Origin: Candidatus Poribacteria bacterium
GTDB lineage: Bacteria; Abyssobacteria; SURF-5
Reading direction: 5' to 3'
DNA length: 10,285 nucleotides
Assembly: GCA_016215705.1 (NCBI GenBank)
Contig: JACRIR010000190.1
Span: 1-10,285, forward strand
Below, piece after piece: positions 1,695 to 10,281 of this stretch. Both the position numbers and the translations under genes were made by a program. The notes under the pieces are model-generated. The model did no database searches and was not told the origin of the DNA. It saw only the letters and a program-made list of their open reading frames with translations. Each line of letters starts with the position of its first letter. Within the stretch, counting starts at the first letter, position 1.

Positions 1695-3890
1695 ATGATG
1701 AAGAAGAGCAAAAGAAACGGTTGGGAAGCGCTCGGGAGGCCCGTGTATCCATTCACGGCTATTGTCGGGCAAGAGGAGTTGCTTCTCGCGCTCGTTCTGA
1801 ACGCAATCAATCCCTCGCTTTCGGGCGTGCTCGTGCGTGGCGAGAAGGGTACGGCCAAGTCAACCGCTGTCAGGGCGCTTGCAGACCTCTTGCCGGAGGT
1901 CGAAGTCGTTGCGGATTGCCCGTTCGGCTGCCATCCGAGGGAAAAGGAGAGAATGTGTCTGGCGTGTCGCGAGCGGCTCTCCCGAAATACTGAGTTTCCG
2001 GTCGAGACTCACAAAGTGCAAGTGATAAACCTGCCGGTCGGCGCGACCGAAGACAGGGTGGTAGGCTCAGTCGATTTCGAGCATGCTCTGCGCGCCGGCG
2101 AAAGGCGGGCCGAAATGGGAATTCTTGCGGCCGCAAACCGGAACATTCTCTATGTTGACGAAGTCAATCTTCTCGACGACCATATCGTAAATCTGCTTCT
2201 CGACACAGTCATCACCGGCATAAACATCATCGAGCGCGAAGGTATTTCGTTCGCGCATCCGTCCGAGTTCGCGCTCGTGGGCACGATGAACCCCGAAGAA
2301 GGCGAGATCAGGCCGCAGTTGCTCGACCGGTTCGGCTTGTGCGTCAGCATCGAAGGGATTGCTGACGCCGATTCGCGAGTCGAACTCATGAAACGCCGCG
2401 AAGAGTTCGATACGGACCCCGTCGCTTATCGGGAGAAATGGGCGATTGCGCAAGAGGCGATGCGGGCAAGGATTCGAAGGGCTCGTGAGTTGCTCCCCCT
2501 CGTGTCCGTCTCGAATGAGACGCGCGCGTTCATCTCGCAGATATGCTTGCTCAACAAAGTGGACGGCCACCGGGCCGACATCTTCCTCGAAAAAACCGCG
2601 AAAACGATAGCCGCGTTCAACGTCCGCCTATCTCCGACCCTCGAGGACATGAGCCAGGCGGCAAAACTCGTGCTGCCGCATCGCTCGCGTAAGGTTGATC
2701 TGCCCAAGAAAACCCTCGAGGATTTCCAGCGCATGCTCGCAGAGGAACTCGCAAAGGAGGAACGCCGCAAGAACGGGAAAGGCGGTCTCGAGGAAACAGA
2801 CGCCGATGCCACCGAGGTCGATGCGGAACAAGTGTTGCTGTCAGACGATTCATCGTTCGACGGCGGCGACGCGGCCAGTGGCGCGAGCGCGGCTGCCGGC
2901 GACGAGAACCAGCAAGCGCCCGATTTCGGCGGAAACCTCGAGGACGGCGCGGAAACCGACAAAGTGGGCTGCGGAAGCAGGTCGCGCGACAAGAACTACA
3001 GGGAGCGCTTGTTCGGAATTGGCGAGACGTTCAGGGTGCCGTCTCTTCTCATCGAGAGGGACCGAACCACGCGCAAGAAGAGCGGGCGCCGCATGCCGAC
3101 GCAGACGCTCCGGAAAACGGGCCGTTACGTGCGCAGCACCGCCGAAAGACGCAATGACGATCTCGCGTTCGATGCGACAATCCGCGCCGCAGCGCCCCAT
3201 CAGAAAAGCCGTCCGAAACGCGATGTCGCCATTACCATCGAGGATTCCGATATCCGCGAGAAAGTGCGCCGGATGAAGTCGGGCTGCCTCATGCTCTTCG
3301 TCGTGGATGCAAGCGGCTCGATGGGCACCCGTTTGATGACCGAGACCAAGGCGGCGATGATAAGCCTCCTCCTCGACGCCTATCAACGGCGCGACAAAGT
3401 GGCGCTCGTGACGTTCAAAGGCGACTCGGCCGAGGTTCTGCTGCCGCCGACGAACAGCATAGACCTCGCCAAGAAGCTTCTCGAAGACCTGCCGGCAGGC
3501 GGCAAGACCCCCCTCGGCCACGGCCTGCTGAAAGCACACGAGCTTCTCATGAATCATTTGCGCCGCGAAAACCAGACGACGCCTCTCATGGTCCTTATCT
3601 CCGACGGAGAGGCCAACGTGGGCGTCAGGGCCGACAAATCCTACGAGGGCCCCGGCTATTCGGCGCTCCTCGATGAGTTGTTCGAGATCGCGAAAATGAT
3701 ACGGGAAGACAAGAGAATCAAGACCCTCGTCATCGATACGGAAGAAAAAAGATTCTCCGTTTTCCGCAATTCCGCCACCTCTCCCTCGATGGCCCAGCGA
3801 ATAGCCGCCTCCATGGGCTCCTCCTACTGTAAGATCGAGGACTTCCGCGCGGGCGGCGTCGTCCGCGCCGTCAAAGAGCAAATGCGCTGA
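1695..3890 (+). CDS. fused ChlI-ChlD type chelatase ATPase with VWA domain
   Basis: This 731-residue protein combines an active-looking AAA+ module with a C-terminal von Willebrand factor A domain, as in the D subunit of Mg/Co-chelatases, which bridges the ATPase ring to the catalytic subunit. The AAA+ part has Walker [10 protein letters not shown] (49-57), a four-cysteine cluster (75, 79, 88, 91), Walker B ILYVDE (151-156), GTMNPEEGE (196-204), LLDRFGL (209-215) and VDGHRAD (289-295). An acidic, Ala/Gly/Ser-rich linker spans about 360-430. The VWA domain has the MIDAS residues DASGS (538-542), the GGKTPL threonine (605) and SDGEA (636-640). Classical ChlD usually has a degenerate Walker A; here it is intact, so the protein may hydrolyse ATP itself. 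ATG at 1695 (or 1698) follows GAGG (1684-1687). The AAA+ half is clearly a paralogue of the preceding gene. The catalytic partner is not in the window. Confidence 0.88.
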
Positions 3891-4077: not shown

Positions 4078-5718
4078 ATGAGAAAAGCTCAGCAGTGGAG
4101 CCTGGCAATTGTTCTGGTATGCGCGCTCTCAGCCGTAGAGGCCGCCGCTTACGCCGCTTCGATGTTTCCGAAGAACTCACTCGTGCGCAAAAGGTGCATT
4201 GCCTGTCATATGCCCGATCAGAACGGCCGGCTCGAGGTCATCGAAGAAACCAGGAAAACTCCTGAAGAATGGAAAGTCGTCGTCGATCGGATGATCGCGA
4301 TGGACGGCGCAACGCTCGACGACGCCGAGTTTCCTCCTGTAATCAAGGAACTGAGCAAGCACCTTTGTCTGACACCCGAGGAGATGGCCGAAGTAGCCTA
4401 TCTAAACAGCGATGAAAACAGCCAGTACAGGGAAATACCCCGGAGCGATTTGGAAATGCAGATCATGGGCGCCTGCGCCCGGTGCCACACGTTCGGCAAA
4501 ATAAAATCGCACAGGAACACGCTCCAGCAATGGGCGGAAGTGAGGAACCTGCATCTTGGGTACTATCCTACTGCCGTCTTCCAGATGAGGGAAATGGACT
4601 GGCCGAAGGTTTTCAAGGACCTGCTCGACCCTCTATCAAAACTCTATGCTTTTGAGGATCCCCGTTGGCATGAATGGATGAAAAACAGAAAAGAGCAGGA
4701 TCTGACTGGCAAATGGAAAGTCGCCGGCTACCAGCCGGGCCTCGGATACTACGATGGAGCATACATTTTCAAATCGGACCCCGCCAGGGGAGAAGATGAG
4801 TATCGCATCGAGCGCGAGGTCAAATATGAGAACGGGACAACCCTCAAAATGACCGGCGAAGGGACGCTTTATAGCGAGTTTCATCTGCGGCTCTCATTTG
4901 CAGCGACCCCTCTGACCGGACGCGTCGAGGGTGTGTTCGATCTCGACGGCTCTCAAACGGGATTCAAGGGTAAGTGGTGGACAGTCGTTCAGGACTCCAA
5001 CGCCTATGGGGACGAAACATTCTACAAGGTTGGCGGCGATCCCCGTCTTTTCGCGGTCTATCCGAAATCGATTCGCGCCGCCGATGGACTGAAACAGAAA
5101 ATCACGCTTGTTGGAGTCGGGCTGTCCGCAAAAGTCACCGAGGCTGAAATCAGGTTCTCTGCATCGAATGTCAAGGTCTCAAAGATACTTAAGGCCGAAG
5201 ATTCCAAAATCGTCTGCCAGGTGCAAGCAGCGAGCGTCGCCTCGACCGGTCCCGCAAAGCTGAGCGTAAAAGGGATTTCATGCGATGAGGCAATCACCAT
5301 CTTTGACAAGATCGATGGCATAAAGGTGCTTCCCGAGCTTGGGCGCGCCCGCGTGAGCGGCGGCGCTGCTTATCCTCCTCAAGGTGTGCAATTTGTTGCC
5401 CGTGGCCTGAGCTTCGGCTCCGACGGTAAGCCTAACACCGATGACGACCTGGTTCTCGAGGCCGTGGACGCCACGTGGTGGCTCGAGGAAGAAGCTACCA
5501 GAGAAGGCGACGACGATCTGATGTGGTTACAGGCGCCAATCATGAACGGCCTTTATTCTCCTGTGACCACGTACGGACCCATAATCGGCAGAATGCAAAA
5601 TCAGGAAGGCGTAGGACTAATTGCCGTCGGCGCCGCTTACACGGAAGGAACGCGCGAGCTAAAAGGCAGAGCGTTGCTGGCTGTAACGGTTCCGGATTTT
5701 ATACCGCATATAAAGTAG
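4078..5718 (+). CDS. qhpA: quinohaemoprotein amine dehydrogenase alpha subunit (dihaem)
   Basis: QhpA is the large periplasmic subunit of quinohaemoprotein amine dehydrogenase. It carries two c-type haems that take electrons from the CTQ cofactor of the gamma subunit during oxidation of primary amines to aldehydes and ammonia. The 546 residues begin with a signal peptide (basic start, hydrophobic 8-20, likely cut near AYA-26 or YAA-27). The haem domain has CIACH (40-44) and CARCH (133-137). From about 200 on come the beta-sandwich domains II-IV of the family. The C-terminal part contains DGKPNTDDD, VDATWWLEE and LLAVTVPDFIPHI, which I recognise from the Pseudomonas/Paracoccus alpha subunits. 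Length is close to the family norm. The ATG follows GGAGG at a 7-base spacing. It is the first gene of the operon behind the 3900-3928 promoter, and its stop codon overlaps the ribosome binding site of qhpD. Confidence 0.93.
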   Translation: MRKAQQWSLAIVLVCALSAVEAAAYAASMFPKNSLVRKRCIACHMPDQNGRLEVIEETRKTPEEWKVVVDRMIAMDGATLDDAEFPPVIKELSKHLCLTPEEMAEVAYLNSDENSQYREIPRSDLEMQIMGACARCHTFGKIKSHRNTLQQWAEVRNLHLGYYPTAVFQMREMDWPKVFKDLLDPLSKLYAFEDPRWHEWMKNRKEQDLTGKWKVAGYQPGLGYYDGAYIFKSDPARGEDEYRIEREVKYENGTTLKMTGEGTLYSEFHLRLSFAATPLTGRVEGVFDLDGSQTGFKGKWWTVVQDSNAYGDETFYKVGGDPRLFAVYPKSIRAADGLKQKITLVGVGLSAKVTEAEIRFSASNVKVSKILKAEDSKIVCQVQAASVASTGPAKLSVKGISCDEAITIFDKIDGIKVLPELGRARVSGGAAYPPQGVQFVARGLSFGSDGKPNTDDDLVLEAVDATWWLEEEATREGDDDLMWLQAPIMNGLYSPVTTYGPIIGRMQNQEGVGLIAVGAAYTEGTRELKGRALLAVTVPDFIPHIK

Positions 5719-5726
5719 GGCGCGCA

Positions 5727-7166
5727 ATGGAACGATTCAGGGTCGCCGAAAACAGAGTGCTTGACGTTGACGGACACAGTTTCCTGTTTCTGGTCCGCGA
5801 AAACGCCATCTTCGAGGTTGCTCCCGAGATGAAGATTCTCCTCGACCGATGCTCGTCGAACGGCGACTTGAGCAGGGACGAAATCCTCGCTCGCATCGGC
5901 AGGTCTCCCGAAGATAGCGTCAAGACATTCAATGGACTCGTCCGCAGACGTGTCATCGAGACTAGAACTGACAAGGCTGCTTCTCCCACGGGCGCGCAAG
6001 CAACTGGATATTCAATCCCTATAAGCACCCTGGTGCTGCACGTCACAGATGACTGCAATATGGGATGTCTCTATTGCTACCGGCCGCCGCGCGAAAAGGC
6101 GAGCAATCGGCCGCCGGAAGAAAAAAGGATGATGACGCCCGAAGTGGCGGAGCGAGCCATAGACTTTCTGTTTGAGCGTTCGGGCAGTCTGAAGAAAATG
6201 GTCCTTGTATTCTTTGGGGGTGAGCCTTTTCTCAATTTTGACCTCATCCGCGTCGCCGTCAAGCACGCGAAACAAAAAGCGGAGGAGTCCGGAAAGAAGA
6301 TCGATTTCGCTGTCACTACCAACGGAACCCTGCTCACGGACGCGGCTGTCCGGTTCATCCAGGAGAACGAGATCGGAGTCACCGTGAGCATCGACGGCTT
6401 CGAAAAAGCGCACGACCGCTATCGCCGTTTTGCCGATGGGTCGCCCTCATACAGCGCCATAGTCCCTAACGTGGCAGAGCTTGTTCGGGCGTCCGACCGG
6501 CGACCCGTCGTTGCCCGCGTGACCGTCGCCGGCGGTGCAGAAGACGTTCCTGTCATATTGGATCATCTCCTCGAAATGGGCTTCGCGGAAGTCGGATTCG
6601 CGCCGGTCACAACCTGTGATCCGTCGTATCAGCTTGACGACGACTGCATGAAGCAACTACTCTGCCGGTTCGGCGCACTCTCCGAAAGATTCCTGAGCGC
6701 AGCCGCGCACAGCGACTTCTTTGGATTCTCGAATTTGATTGATTTGCTTGTGGCCCTGCATGAGGGCGAGGTAAAGAGCTATCCGTGCGGCGCGGGCATT
6801 GGTCTCTTTTCGGTGGACCCCGAAGGACGGCTGTATCTTTGCCAGCGTCTTACGGGTGAAGAACGGTTCTGCATGGGTGACCTTACTCGAGGACTGGACG
6901 ACTCGAAACTACGGATTTTCAGAGGGCAGGCCGAAGCCGATCGCAAGGAAGCGTGCGGGAGTTGTTGGGCGAGAACCGTGTGCGCCGGCGGGTGCTACCA
7001 CGAGTCCTTGGTCAGAGAGGGGGACCTCACCGCGCCGAATCTGCACTACTGCGAATGGATAAAGTCGTGGCTCGAAATGGGCTTGCGAGTATATGGGCGA
7101 ATCGCCCTAGACCGCCCTGAGTATCTGGATAAGCTTTCGATTATGCGGGGGCACGCGAGCGCTTGA
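5727..7166 (+). CDS. qhpD: radical SAM/SPASM peptide-maturing enzyme QhpD
   Basis: QhpD is the cytoplasmic radical SAM enzyme that makes the Cys-to-Glu/Asp thioether crosslinks inside the gamma subunit precursor. This 479-residue protein has the radical SAM cluster motif CNMGCLYC (Cys 110, 114, 117), GGEP (164-167), TTNGT (197-201) and SIDG (221-224). The C-terminal SPASM region has CX12GX4C (354-372), CX2CX5CX3C (410-423) and a final Cys 442, enough ligands for two auxiliary 4Fe-4S clusters. The first about 95 residues form a separate N-terminal part, probably the leader-binding region. The open frame continues upstream inside qhpA, but ATG 5727 is the right start: AGGG (5717-5720) lies 6 bases before it, and the protein then has the family length. 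The 8-bp gap to qhpA suggests translational coupling. Confidence 0.93.
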   Translation: MERFRVAENRVLDVDGHSFLFLVRENAIFEVAPEMKILLDRCSSNGDLSRDEILARIGRSPEDSVKTFNGLVRRRVIETRTDKAASPTGAQATGYSIPISTLVLHVTDDCNMGCLYCYRPPREKASNRPPEEKRMMTPEVAERAIDFLFERSGSLKKMVLVFFGGEPFLNFDLIRVAVKHAKQKAEESGKKIDFAVTTNGTLLTDAAVRFIQENEIGVTVSIDGFEKAHDRYRRFADGSPSYSAIVPNVAELVRASDRRPVVARVTVAGGAEDVPVILDHLLEMGFAEVGFAPVTTCDPSYQLDDDCMKQLLCRFGALSERFLSAAAHSDFFGFSNLIDLLVALHEGEVKSYPCGAGIGLFSVDPEGRLYLCQRLTGEERFCMGDLTRGLDDSKLRIFRGQAEADRKEACGSCWARTVCAGGCYHESLVREGDLTAPNLHYCEWIKSWLEMGLRVYGRIALDRPEYLDKLSIMRGHASA

Positions 7167-7270: not shown

Positions 7271-7609
7271 ATGAAAACGGGGGATAACATGGAAGACGAA
7301 GGATTGAAAGCGGTAAACAAGAAAGCGAAGAAGCTGGAGGAAACCGAAGTGTTCGGGATGGCCGATGTAATGACTGGCATGCCGATTGGATGCACGACGG
7401 TATTTGACACGGGATGGGAAACGAATCCGCGTCCATATTTGCCCATCGGCAATTGCATGCCGAGCGCGCGCGATTGGACCTCATGCGCGGGCCCATGCTG
7501 GTGGCCCGCCCAGGTGCCCGACGGCATCATGCGGTTCCCCGGTTTCCATAATCAGTGCCGCGCTATCGAACGGGATTGGAGAAACCTTAATTTCGTTATC
7601 AAGAGATGA
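7271..7609 (+). CDS. qhpC: quinohaemoprotein amine dehydrogenase gamma subunit precursor (CTQ)
   Basis: This 112-residue protein is the precursor of the small catalytic subunit that carries cysteine tryptophylquinone. Using known spacing in the Pseudomonas/Paracoccus gamma subunit, the expected crosslinks are Cys41-Glu50 (+9), Cys62-Asp68 (+6) and Cys76-Asp84 (+8), with CTQ formed from Cys72 and Trp78 (+6). All four spacings are kept exactly. Asp68 corresponds to the proposed catalytic base. The core CAGPCWWPAQVPD (72-84) and the end DWRNLNFV are family-like. Residues 1 to about 33 form a charged leader (KKAKKLEETE) with no Sec signal, as expected of a leader read by QhpD and later removed by a protease. 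Cys96 is an additional cysteine. ATG 7271 follows AGGG (7261-7264); ATG 7289 is a possible alternative that would shorten the leader by six residues. Confidence 0.93.
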   Translation: MKTGDNMEDEGLKAVNKKAKKLEETEVFGMADVMTGMPIGCTTVFDTGWETNPRPYLPIGNCMPSARDWTSCAGPCWWPAQVPDGIMRFPGFHNQCRAIERDWRNLNFVIKR

Positions 7610-7623
7610 TAAGAGGTGGCCTC

Positions 7624-7662
7624 TAATTTGGGGACACCAAACCGCATGGTGTCCCCCAATTA
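7624..7662. repeat. palindromic dispersed repeat, copy 2
   Basis: TAATTTGGGGACACCA (7624-7639) pairs with TGGTGTCCCCCAATTA (7647-7662) at 15 of 16 positions with a 7-base loop. It is the strongest hairpin in the window. A 5-bp hairpin (AGAGG 7612-7616 with CCTCT 7620-7624) abuts it on the left. The element lies between qhpC and qhpB and ends 11 bases before the qhpB ribosome binding site. There is no T-run, so it may act as an mRNA stabiliser or partial barrier, or may be a neutral mobile-type repeat. It is related to 1649-1683. Confidence 0.85.
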
Positions 7663-7685: not shown

Positions 7686-8729
7686 ATGATGAAGAAAAAG
7701 CTGTTGGCGACCTTGCTGTTGGGGTGCATGGTAAGCTTCTCCGGTCTCGCTCGGGCCAACGACTTTATTTATGCACCCGTGAGCAACGCGCTGCAAATCA
7801 TCGATTGCAGCAAAGACGCGGTAGTGAAAACAATACCGGCGTACAACGATTTCATTGCCAGCGCTGCGTATTCGCCCGACGGAAAGCGGTACTATGCATG
7901 CGGATGGCACTCCATCTACGTTTTCGACACGATGTCCGACAAACTGATAGACACGTACAACTTCTCGACAGAACTTAACAGGGTTACAATAGGTTCGGTT
8001 GCTGTCTCCACCGACGGCGCCAGACTGTACATTGCCGCGAGCATCGTGAAGAGGAAACAGAACATCCCTCGACTCAATGTTCTACCTCCCCAGGTTGTTG
8101 CATTCGACCTCAAGAAAAGACAAATAATAAAGAGCTATGAGGCGCCCAATGCCATCAGCGGTGTCTTCACGATACGCAAGGACCCCAATCACCTCATTCT
8201 TCTCGGCCTAGATGTCTATAAGCTCGACCTTCGGACGGGAAAAGTCGAAACGATCATGGGAATGCTCAACCCTGACAAAGGGCAAAAGGAAGTAAGAAAT
8301 ATTATTCTGAACAATGTCAATTCGAGTCCGGGTGACCACGGGCTGCTTGCCCTTCCATATTACTCATTCAGCGAAACCGCCAGGGGCATGGGCTACCTTA
8401 TCATCGACACCAACACAGGCAAGCTGAGTCTCGTCAAGGGCGCTGACATCTGGTTTGCATACTCGGCGAAAGTGTCGCCGGACAAGAAGTACATCTATGC
8501 GGTTTTGGACGAACTCGTGAAAATTGACATGAAGACCGGTAAGACTATCAAATACACCACGGCAGAGAAAGGGACGTACACCGCCGTGGCTGTCTCGCCC
8601 GACGGGAAAAAGGTCTACGCTGGACCCTATGGCGCAGACATATCGGTTTATGACGCCGAAAGCTTGAAACTGCTGGGGGTTATTCCCCTCGAGGCCGACG
8701 GAAGGGTCTCGACGCTGATATCGCGCTGA
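7686..8729 (+). CDS. qhpB: quinohaemoprotein amine dehydrogenase beta subunit (beta-propeller)
   Basis: QhpB is the periplasmic seven-bladed propeller subunit that, with alpha, encloses the CTQ-bearing gamma subunit. The 347-residue precursor has YVTN/WD40-type blade signatures such as YSPDGKRYYACGW, VSPDKKYIYAV and VSPDGKKVYAG, and repeated strands ending in YVFDT, YKLDLRTGK and VKIDMKTGK. The signal peptide has KKK (3-5), a hydrophobic stretch (6-18) and an ARA-24 cleavage site before NDFIYAP; an LLGC sequence (11-14) also resembles a lipobox, but the hydrophobic part before it is short. The frame stays open upstream to 7386, but that part overlaps qhpC and the palindrome. GGGAGGA (7674-7680) fixes the start at ATG 7686, or ATG 7689 directly after it. 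Confidence 0.9.
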   Translation: MMKKKLLATLLLGCMVSFSGLARANDFIYAPVSNALQIIDCSKDAVVKTIPAYNDFIASAAYSPDGKRYYACGWHSIYVFDTMSDKLIDTYNFSTELNRVTIGSVAVSTDGARLYIAASIVKRKQNIPRLNVLPPQVVAFDLKKRQIIKSYEAPNAISGVFTIRKDPNHLILLGLDVYKLDLRTGKVETIMGMLNPDKGQKEVRNIILNNVNSSPGDHGLLALPYYSFSETARGMGYLIIDTNTGKLSLVKGADIWFAYSAKVSPDKKYIYAVLDELVKIDMKTGKTIKYTTAEKGTYTAVAVSPDGKKVYAGPYGADISVYDAESLKLLGVIPLEADGRVSTLISR

Positions 8730-8748: not shown

Positions 8749-9345
8749 ATGGACAAAGATAAACCGGCAGATAATAACCCATCACGACGTTCCGGTGTTA
8801 CTAAGCTGAAATGGGCTGTAATCGTCGTGGCGCTTTTGATACCGGCGTCCATATTCGCCTCTCACGAGGTGGCAATCAGGTATTATCAAGAAGCGACCTG
8901 TTCGGCGTGCCATGAGATGAAAGACATCGTTCGGAAATGGAAAGATTCCGGTTCAGCCAAGAATCACAAGGATTGCATGGGCTGCCATTTTGATAAGGGA
9001 TTCAACGGATGGCTCGCGATGAACAAGGCTGCCGCCGTCGAGTTTGTCGCTCACTTCAAGAAAAACTCTGAGGACCCGATCAAGCCCCCGGATGAACCAC
9101 TTTTTTGGGACGGAGATAAAGAGCCGGGCTATTGGAGTCTCGTGCCAAATCACCGCTGTTTTCAGTGTCATGACGCCAAGAACCACGGCGAGCTGGACCA
9201 ACCACGAATTCACGCCAAGCTCATAAGCGGTATCGCTTCCAAACCCTGCAAGGATTGCCACAGCCACGAGATGCGCAACGGGCAGAAATTTTTTGAAAAA
9301 GTGTCCGGGGAAGAACAAGCCGCTTCGGCGGGCAGTCAGACTTGA
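8749..9345 (+). CDS. NapC/NrfH-type membrane-anchored tetrahaem cytochrome c
   Basis: This 198-residue protein has one N-terminal membrane segment (about 21-37) with a basic cytoplasmic start, and four haem motifs: CSACH (51-55), CMGCH (76-80), CFQCH (137-141) and CKDCH (167-171). The first motif continues as CSACHEM, the CXXCHXM pattern of the quinol-side haem of NrfH. Family members link the membrane quinone pool to periplasmic oxidoreductases. Here the gene lies 19 bp after qhpB, with AAGGAG (8733-8738) before its ATG, so it is very likely the electron partner of the amine dehydrogenase. Electrons would then flow from enzyme to quinone or to another cytochrome, opposite to the usual NrfH direction. 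That direction is inference; Paracoccus uses a soluble cytochrome instead. The last 15 residues are low-complexity. Confidence 0.88.
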   Translation: MDKDKPADNNPSRRSGVTKLKWAVIVVALLIPASIFASHEVAIRYYQEATCSACHEMKDIVRKWKDSGSAKNHKDCMGCHFDKGFNGWLAMNKAAAVEFVAHFKKNSEDPIKPPDEPLFWDGDKEPGYWSLVPNHRCFQCHDAKNHGELDQPRIHAKLISGIASKPCKDCHSHEMRNGQKFFEKVSGEEQAASAGSQT

Positions 9346-9351
9346 GTCCAA

Positions 9352-10281
9352 ATGATGGAACTGGCCGTCCACATCCGGAAGCCCCAACAGGGCGCAGGCT
9401 TGAACGAAATTCAAAACCATCTGCTTGGCTTCTATGAGGCGGCTGACATTCAAAACACGGATTGGGGCGGGAAACTCGGTCGTTCCATTCACAGAATCTA
9501 TGTCGGCGATGAGTTTTGCGCGAACCGGCTGCCCACTCTCGCTGAACTGGAAGACATCCTCCAATTTGCAGCAACAGAGAACAAAGAGACAACCTTCCTG
9601 ACGCCGCCACTTACGAATGACGGGCTGGATGCATGCTCCCTCCTCTTTGACTGTCTCAAAAACATGCGACCATCCGCGGAGATAGTCGCCAACGACTGGG
9701 GCACGCTCCTTTTTCTGAAAGCGGGATACCCCTCGCTCCGACTTGCGGCAGGACGGCTTCTGGACAAGGGATTCAAGGACCCCAGGCTGCAAGATGCGGA
9801 TCGCCTCTCCTTGTTCTCGCCTGAAACCGAGGCGCTACTGAATGCGAGCACGTTTGACCATGCAGGGTTCCAGGAAAAGATGGTTGAGTTGGGAGTCTCG
9901 CGTCTGGAGCGCGACGTGTTTCCATACGCGCGGAAGCTGTGTGGCTCTCCCCGGCTCGGAATATCCGTTTATTTTCCTCTCGGCTATGTCACCACGGGCA
10001 GAGTCTGCTGGACTGCGACCTTTGCGCAAAAACCCGCCGGAATGTTTGTCGCTTCGGGCAAGTGCGCCCGCACCTGTGACACGATGCCTCTCCGGCTCCG
10101 AAGCGATGATTTCTCGTTTCCGGTGATTCAGAATGGCAACACCTTGTACTATCTGTATTCGGCGCCGATGATGGCATCGCTGGTGGAGGTGGCAAGAAAC
10201 CAAAACCTGCGCCTTGTGTATCAAGGGTTTGCCTTGCTTCCCCCTTTGATAAAGGGGGGCAAGGGAGATTTGACGACATAG
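9352..10281 (+). CDS. U32-family UbiV-like iron-sulfur protein
   Basis: This 309-residue protein looks like a U32-type TIM-barrel protein close to UbiV. It starts MELAVHIRK and has IYVGDEFCANRLP (50-61), LTPPLTNDGLD (83-93), EIVANDWGTL (110-119) and AGRLL (133-137). UbiV holds a 4Fe-4S cluster with one N-terminal cysteine and a CX12CX3C set; here Cys56 fits the first and Cys219, Cys238 and Cys242 (CX18CX3C) fit the set. Cys197 is also present. Known U32 members (UbiU/UbiV, RlhA, TrhP) support O2-independent hydroxylation; protease activity is shown only for a few. The gene begins 6 bp after the cytochrome stop, with a weak ribosome binding site, so it is probably coupled to it; ATG 9355 is an alternative start. 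The last about 14 residues (PPLIKGGKGDLTT) come from a dispersed repeat, not from the family fold. Confidence 0.72.
   Translation: MMELAVHIRKPQQGAGLNEIQNHLLGFYEAADIQNTDWGGKLGRSIHRIYVGDEFCANRLPTLAELEDILQFAATENKETTFLTPPLTNDGLDACSLLFDCLKNMRPSAEIVANDWGTLLFLKAGYPSLRLAAGRLLDKGFKDPRLQDADRLSLFSPETEALLNASTFDHAGFQEKMVELGVSRLERDVFPYARKLCGSPRLGISVYFPLGYVTTGRVCWTATFAQKPAGMFVASGKCARTCDTMPLRLRSDDFSFPVIQNGNTLYYLYSAPMMASLVEVARNQNLRLVYQGFALLPPLIKGGKGDLTT
10231..10265. repeat. dispersed palindromic repeat overlapping the U32 gene end
   Basis: CCCCCTTT (10240-10247) pairs with AAAGGGGG (10251-10258) around GAT, and CCTTG (10232-10236) with CAAGG (10260-10264) extends the stem. This matches a well-known type of intergenic repeat (CCCCCTTT-loop-AAAGGGGG, then AAGGG and GATTT) found in many bacterial genomes. 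Its reading as PPLIKGG is typical where a frame runs into such a repeat. It supplies the last residues and stop codon of the U32-like gene. Confidence 0.75.

Follow-up and report, generated by a model that had tools for sequence, protein, structure and literature searches.

The qhp operon of the window

The window, the whole stretch of DNA analysed here, is one entire contig of 10,285 bp (contig C123 of genome G000), from an assembly of 5.47 Mb in 270 contigs that is 92% complete. The genes treated below are these:

4078..5718, + strand: qhpA, dihaem alpha subunit of quinohemoprotein amine dehydrogenase (TIGR03908; Pfam PF09098/14930/09099/09100)
5727..7166, + strand: qhpD, radical SAM/SPASM enzyme (TIGR03906; radical SAM and SPASM matches)
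7271..7609, + strand: qhpC, gamma subunit precursor (NF037958, 113.8 bits, cut-off 50)
7686..8729, + strand: qhpB, beta-propeller beta subunit (TIGR03907; synteny in relatives)
8749..9345, + strand: NapC/NrfH-type membrane-anchored tetrahaem cytochrome (PF03264, E 7e-10; NrfH-like)
9352..10281, + strand: UbiV-like U32-family protein, UbiVL (hhalign to UbiV, AF2 model, Cys conservation)

Judged from these matches, the window carries a quinohemoprotein amine dehydrogenase operon in the order qhpA-D-C-B. QhpA scores 314.8 bits against TIGR03908 (cut-off 274) and has two CxxCH haem motifs, at residues 40 and 133. QhpD, at 431 bits, falls slightly short of the TIGR03906 cut-off of 453, and QhpB (E 1e-31, 110 bits) lies under the curated TIGR03907 cut-off of 223. 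The window QhpD, presumably the maker of three Cys-Asp/Glu thioethers, is 33–58% identical to QhpD elsewhere. We assume for QhpC the residue pairing of the known Pseudomonas and Paracoccus enzymes; on that basis it presents the cross-link pairs C41-E50, C62-D68 and C76-D84 and the CTQ pair C72-W78 (precursor numbering). The CTQ Trp and every cross-link residue, eight residues in all, are invariant in 75 of 75 extracted QhpC proteins, and the same product is therefore expected with either of the two hydroxylase systems discussed below. The residue just before the CTQ Trp, position 77 (window 7499–7501), is Trp in 49 of the 75 and Phe, Tyr, Gly or Ser otherwise.

The tetrahaem cytochrome has its four CxxCH motifs at residues 51, 76, 137 and 167. 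It is found in most Desulfobacterota qhp operons and is the probable electron acceptor of the amine dehydrogenase. The genes for the QhpE protease and the QhpF exporter follow the U32 gene pair (see below) in most related operons; the window contig stops before that point. Directly upstream of the qhp operon are two Mg/cobalto-chelatase-like AAA+ genes (524–1573 and 1695–3890), one ChlI-like and one ChlI-ChlD-like with a VWA domain, both under their family cut-offs.

A remote relative of UbiV

The sequence-only reading had described the last gene of the window as UbiV-like. Its open reading frame is as reported there, encoding 309 aa from an ATG start 6 bp past the tetrahaem cytochrome gene, with Cys56, Cys219, Cys238 and Cys242 in place. 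The likeness to UbiV is borne out as a remote one by profile alignment, the four cysteines and the predicted fold, but the protein belongs to a new family and is not UbiV itself.

No Pfam or NCBIfam model matched the window UbiVL, even at E<1, and automatic annotation would therefore call it hypothetical. This includes PF01136 (Pfam Peptidase_U32) and the UbiV models NF047965 and NF011991, against which E. coli UbiV scores 363–440; the relatives of UbiVL gave no match to these two models at E<0.1. Because BLAST of UbiVL proteins against UbiV was not significant in most members, we used profile alignment. An hhalign comparison of a 20-relative UbiVL profile reached UbiV with 71% probability (E 3.6e-5) and all four cysteines in register; against UbiU the probability was 1.6%.

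The ligands of the 4Fe-4S cluster proven in UbiV are C39, C180, C193 and C197 (PMC6747719). The UbiVL pattern, CXnCX18CX3C, aligns with them, its spacing being X18 as against X12 in UbiV. Cys56, Cys219, Cys238 and Cys242 are conserved in 46, 45, 43 and 44, respectively, of 46 aligned relatives, and two of the relatives missing one Cys are truncated or gapped sequences. From this alignment we presume that the four cysteines are 4Fe-4S ligands.

The AF2 model of UbiVL is a confidently predicted TIM barrel (pLDDT 86.6). Among re-aligned PDB chains its best match was the U32 structure 5d88 (Z 13.1 over 203 residues, rmsd 3.7), with CutC barrels in a tie at 12.9. Plain Foldseek on the same model had put chitinases on top with low TM-scores; we discarded that ranking, and a second look with VIA placed 5d88 first. 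A phmmer search of the PDB with the single UbiVL sequence returned chance matches only. By sequence and model, then, we class UbiVL as a remote UbiV relative that stands on its own, new branch within the U32 superfamily.

A UbiU-like partner follows UbiVL in related operons

UbiV works beside UbiU, and a second U32 gene had been predicted just beyond the window. The contig stops 4 bp past the UbiVL stop codon, and the next gene is unreadable here. Searching GTDB species genomes with QhpD yielded 80 loci. A UbiU-like gene, which we term U32P, lies directly after UbiVL in 25 of the 26 loci that continue past UbiVL, as predicted; the sole exception is L023, where U32P is missing. The group nearest to the window, of Desulfobacterota type, has the order qhpA-D-C-B-cytochrome-UbiVL-U32P-qhpF-qhpE and no QhpG. 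The first sign of the pair had come from a distant genome, G043, where a UbiVL relative stands right after a clear PF01136 gene (131 bits).

U32P aligned with UbiU by hhalign at 99.8% probability (E 1e-27), yet its score is far short of the UbiU family cut-off (78 vs 440 bits). The best match of its AF2 model was again 5d88 (Z 17.1; CutC 16.7). It keeps the CX6C pair and has further conserved cysteines (C248, C251, C319). In the tree, qhp-linked U32P proteins form one clade with support 1.00 that excludes UbiU, RlhA, TrhP and the U32P members of other U32 pairs. No U32P was found elsewhere in the window's genome assembly, whose other U32 gene, on contig C138, is TrhP-like, also by tree. The U32P of this genome is predicted to lie in the assembly gap just downstream of UbiVL.

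The pair also adjoins qhpC where qhp clusters are split or duplicated, as D-C-UbiVL-U32P-F-E in L104 and L105 and as A-C-B-UbiVL-U32P in L107 and L108. The genomes of L104 and L105 each have an A-D-C-B cluster as well; the clusters given here are second, stand-alone ones in which qhpA and qhpB were not detected. They may supply CTQ peptides for another enzyme or be a dedicated maturation set.

Among 386 genomes sampled irrespective of qhp, qhpC occurs in four, the window's own included, and all four have the pair in the operon; among the 382 without qhpC, 11 have a U32 pair, and these pairs fall in other clades. The non-qhp pairs mostly have the reversed order, U32P then UbiVL (G043:C3 = L004; L147–L156), and varied neighbours, among them an AMP-ligase, a methyltransferase and MoaA. 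They are probably O2-independent hydroxylases. On this phylogeny the qhp-linked pair represents a dedicated branch within a larger family that is itself uncharacterised.

QhpG and the U32 pair across genomes

CTQ formation in Paracoccus and Pseudomonas requires QhpG, and the two oxygen atoms that this enzyme introduces both come from O2 (PMC7876137). The absence of QhpG anticipated for the window's genome was upheld: the best match there to NF049967 scored 38.5 bits (cut-off 240) and covered residues 1–139 only, and other low-scoring FAD-protein matches to the model were mostly N-terminal. Nor was QhpG found in the searched genomes of the Desulfobacterota-type qhp group.

We searched 83 qhp-bearing genomes in full with the QhpG model and the UbiVL alignment. 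QhpG was scored as present when a match spanned about the full model, or extended as far as the end of its contig, and stood well over the generic FAD-protein background; some such matches are below the curated cut-off. The U32 pair alone was present in 27 genomes, QhpG alone in 42, both in six and neither in eight (Fisher p 2.5e-9; p 4e-12 if the short QhpG-like flavoproteins described below are counted as QhpG). Mutual exclusion, as the sequence-only reading had proposed, thus largely holds, but it is strongly clade-structured and six genomes have both systems. The data offer just five phylogenetically independent contrasts in QhpG, a number too small to reach significance: a mean of 2.1 run in the expected direction and 0.2 in the opposite one, and in 2.8 the U32 pair does not differ. 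On the QhpD tree the U32-only label needs six changes, against a mean of 23 when labels are shuffled; replacement therefore occurred repeatedly.

Both systems occur together in an ETNP (oxygen-minimum-zone) Litorilituus, a Pseudomonadales, a Glaciimonas and three Acidobacteria, and in these last three the pair is detached from the qhp genes. Among the genomes with neither, L037, L043, L062 and L088 have a short QhpG-like flavoprotein, beside qhp genes in two of them. Examples of this protein, all from Acidobacteria, are:

L088:6992-7993, - strand: short QhpG-like flavoprotein
L165:4386-5405: short QhpG-like flavoprotein
L166:1398-2366: short QhpG-like flavoprotein
L167:3845-4861, - strand: short QhpG-like flavoprotein

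These proteins have ∼320–340 aa and, compared with the L088 one, are 40–45% identical. The one tested had no Pfam match, and the best NCBIfam match is QhpG, at 73 bits (cut-off 240). Their hosts are Acidobacteria with no standard QhpG in their qhp operons, and the short flavoprotein is apparently a divergent QhpG. The remaining genomes with neither include L020, with an N gap inside qhpB, and L025 and L079, which are small assemblies. The sole unexplained case is L050 (Planctomycetota), with a qhp operon A-D-C-B-E and neither QhpG nor the pair found in its genome; it may have a third hydroxylation route or an incomplete assembly. Four loci that had appeared to lack both hydroxylases were rejected as such: L028 and L033 are accompanied by a further qhp cluster that includes the pair, and L064 and L084 by a second A-C-B cluster with the pair on the same contig.

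Oxygen and the hosts of the pair

The U32 protein had been proposed as an O2-independent replacement in an anaerobe. No match to the haem-copper oxidase family was found in the window's genome, nor in six other U32-only genomes; the route is not, however, confined to anaerobes. Genes of this family, which takes in NO reductases, were found in 25 of 25 searched QhpG-bearing genomes and in 19 of 26 U32-only genomes (Fisher p 0.01), and we accordingly rejected the pair as a mark of strict anaerobes. U32-only hosts with such genes include Acidobacteria, Glaciimonas and f98 genomes, and O2 would therefore be available to many U32-only hosts. By their gene content, aerobic-looking Acidobacteria are also among the organisms in which the U32 route occurs.

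Proposed function and alternatives

We think it likely that UbiVL and its UbiU-like partner are a heteromeric U32 hydroxylase that replaces QhpG and dihydroxylates Trp78 to give CTQ without O2. The reasons are drawn from comparative sequence analysis: QhpG is absent, Trp78 and the cross-links are kept, the partner gene is adjacent in relatives, qhp-linked U32P proteins have a clade to themselves, the cysteines match the UbiV cluster ligands and the two systems have complementary distributions. Counting against it are the clade structure of those distributions, the haem-copper-oxidase-family genes of many U32-only hosts, the lack of U32P in this assembly and in L023, the remoteness of the UbiV resemblance, the tie with CutC in the fold comparison, and the detached pairs of the three Acidobacteria that also have QhpG. 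The replacement of QhpG suggested by the sequence-only reading is supported, as a function of the pair. Other U32 hydroxylases take their oxygen from prephenate (PMC11574389), and by analogy with UbiUV, RlhA and TrhP we infer the same donor for the qhp pair. Comparable substitutions have been described: UbiUV stands in for the flavin monooxygenases UbiI/H/F in ubiquinone synthesis (PMC6747719), and tRNA hydroxylation offers a parallel choice between the O2-dependent TrhO and the U32 protein TrhP (PMC6599085).

In the proposed sequence of events, QhpD would first cross-link QhpC. UbiVL and U32P, predicted to form a heterodimer in which each partner holds a 4Fe-4S cluster, would then hydroxylate Trp78 twice, in the cytoplasm, on the cross-linked QhpC. 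Export by QhpF and cleavage and trimming of the gamma subunit by QhpE would come afterwards, and in the finished enzyme electrons from amine oxidation would exit via the tetrahaem cytochrome.

The pair might instead serve another need, a small quinone or a haem or cytochrome part, with Trp78 hydroxylated by an unrecognised enzyme or by QhpD with water. The substrates of U32 proteins are diverse, and pairs of the wider family are found off qhp among unrelated neighbours. But in gene content the qhp pair takes the place of QhpG nearly one for one and goes with qhpC even into split and duplicated clusters, U32-type operons showed no further candidate oxygenase, and QhpD and QhpC are conserved there as in QhpG operons; we regard this reading as unlikely. 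More improbable still is that trace O2 is scavenged through a divergent flavoprotein elsewhere in the genome, with the U32 pair merely assisting. Divergent short QhpG-like proteins, low-scoring against the QhpG model, do exist in Acidobacteria without the pair; against this, the window's host has no haem-copper oxidase match, and its FAD proteins score low against the QhpG model, mostly over the N-terminal part.

We give hardly any credence to true peptidase activity on the QhpC leader. That leader does require cleavage, and the Pfam name of the partner's family is 'Peptidase U32' (PF01136), but the leader protease QhpE is encoded in the same operons, the four cluster cysteines hardly ever vary, and characterised proteins with such motifs are hydroxylases (PMC6747719; PMC11574389). 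Equally slight is the chance that a general UbiUV-like or RNA-hydroxylating enzyme sits in qhp operons by accident, as the remote UbiU/TrhP-like scores of U32P might suggest: U32P is far under the UbiU cut-off (78 vs 440 bits) and in a clade of its own, no ubiT-type neighbour was identified beside the pair, and the TrhP-like U32 gene of the window's genome is a different one, on C138.

Taking the heteromeric hydroxylase as the preferred reading, we lean, with somewhat less assurance, to a broader statement: that this is an undescribed O2-independent route in which a dedicated U32 pair with prephenate as donor doubly hydroxylates a Trp within a protein, that a peptide would here, for the first time, be the substrate of a U32 hydroxylase, and that the pair has been exchanged with QhpG several times. 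The open-access literature, to which our search was confined, yielded no U32 genes in qhp operons and no O2-independent CTQ formation. Tryptophylquinone cofactors have so far been tied to O2-dependent maturation, a dependence that the U32 route, if true, would lift. It would also account for amine dehydrogenases in anaerobes of the sulfate-reducer type, and would extend the range of substrates known for these hydroxylases, hitherto a quinone precursor and RNA, to proteins. The small, genetically encoded substrate would make this a compact system for working out U32 oxygen transfer from prephenate.

Comparison with known systems

Like UbiU-UbiV, the qhp pair consists of two adjacent U32 genes with a four-Cys pattern in each, UbiVL having the UbiV-type motif with its first Cys far upstream; in both cases flavin monooxygenases are replaced (for qhp, on our reading) and some genomes keep both systems. 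The two differ in that the qhp pair shows about 25% identity or less, with UbiVL below every family model, and has the reversed gene order, UbiV-like first. U32P has the extra cysteines C248, C251 and C319. The presumed substrate of the qhp pair is a peptidyl Trp, and the pair is linked to qhp with no ubiT identified beside it.

The proposed step, dihydroxylation of Trp in QhpD-cross-linked QhpC, is the one performed by the flavin monooxygenase QhpG (PDB 7CTQ). Fold and chemistry are unrelated, FAD and O2 in QhpG versus predicted Fe-S TIM barrels working without O2 in the U32 pair. RlhA and TrhP share the U32 family, and their hydroxylation is prephenate-dependent (PMC6599085), which is assumed for the qhp pair by analogy; unlike the pair, they are single-gene systems with RNA substrates and fall outside the qhp-linked clade. 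LodB and GoxB, the flavoprotein maturases of CTQ oxidases, also take part in making CTQ, in other enzymes, but are O2-type flavoproteins related to QhpG.

The contig end and a dispersed repeat

The 3' end of the UbiVL gene overlaps a repeat, within which about the last 15 residues of the protein are encoded:

10240..10258, no strand assigned: dispersed palindromic repeat CCCCCTTTGATAAAGGGGG (38 genome copies with at most 1 mismatch; 0 in control)

Several copies of CCCCCTTTGATAAAGGGGG lie no more than about 100 bp from the first base of a contig, and the repeat probably caused the contig break after UbiVL. Two other, mutually similar intergenic palindromes (TTGGG(G)ACACC...GTGTCCCCAATT) are present in the window at 1650–1684 and 7626–7662, and they too have the look of a dispersed repeat.
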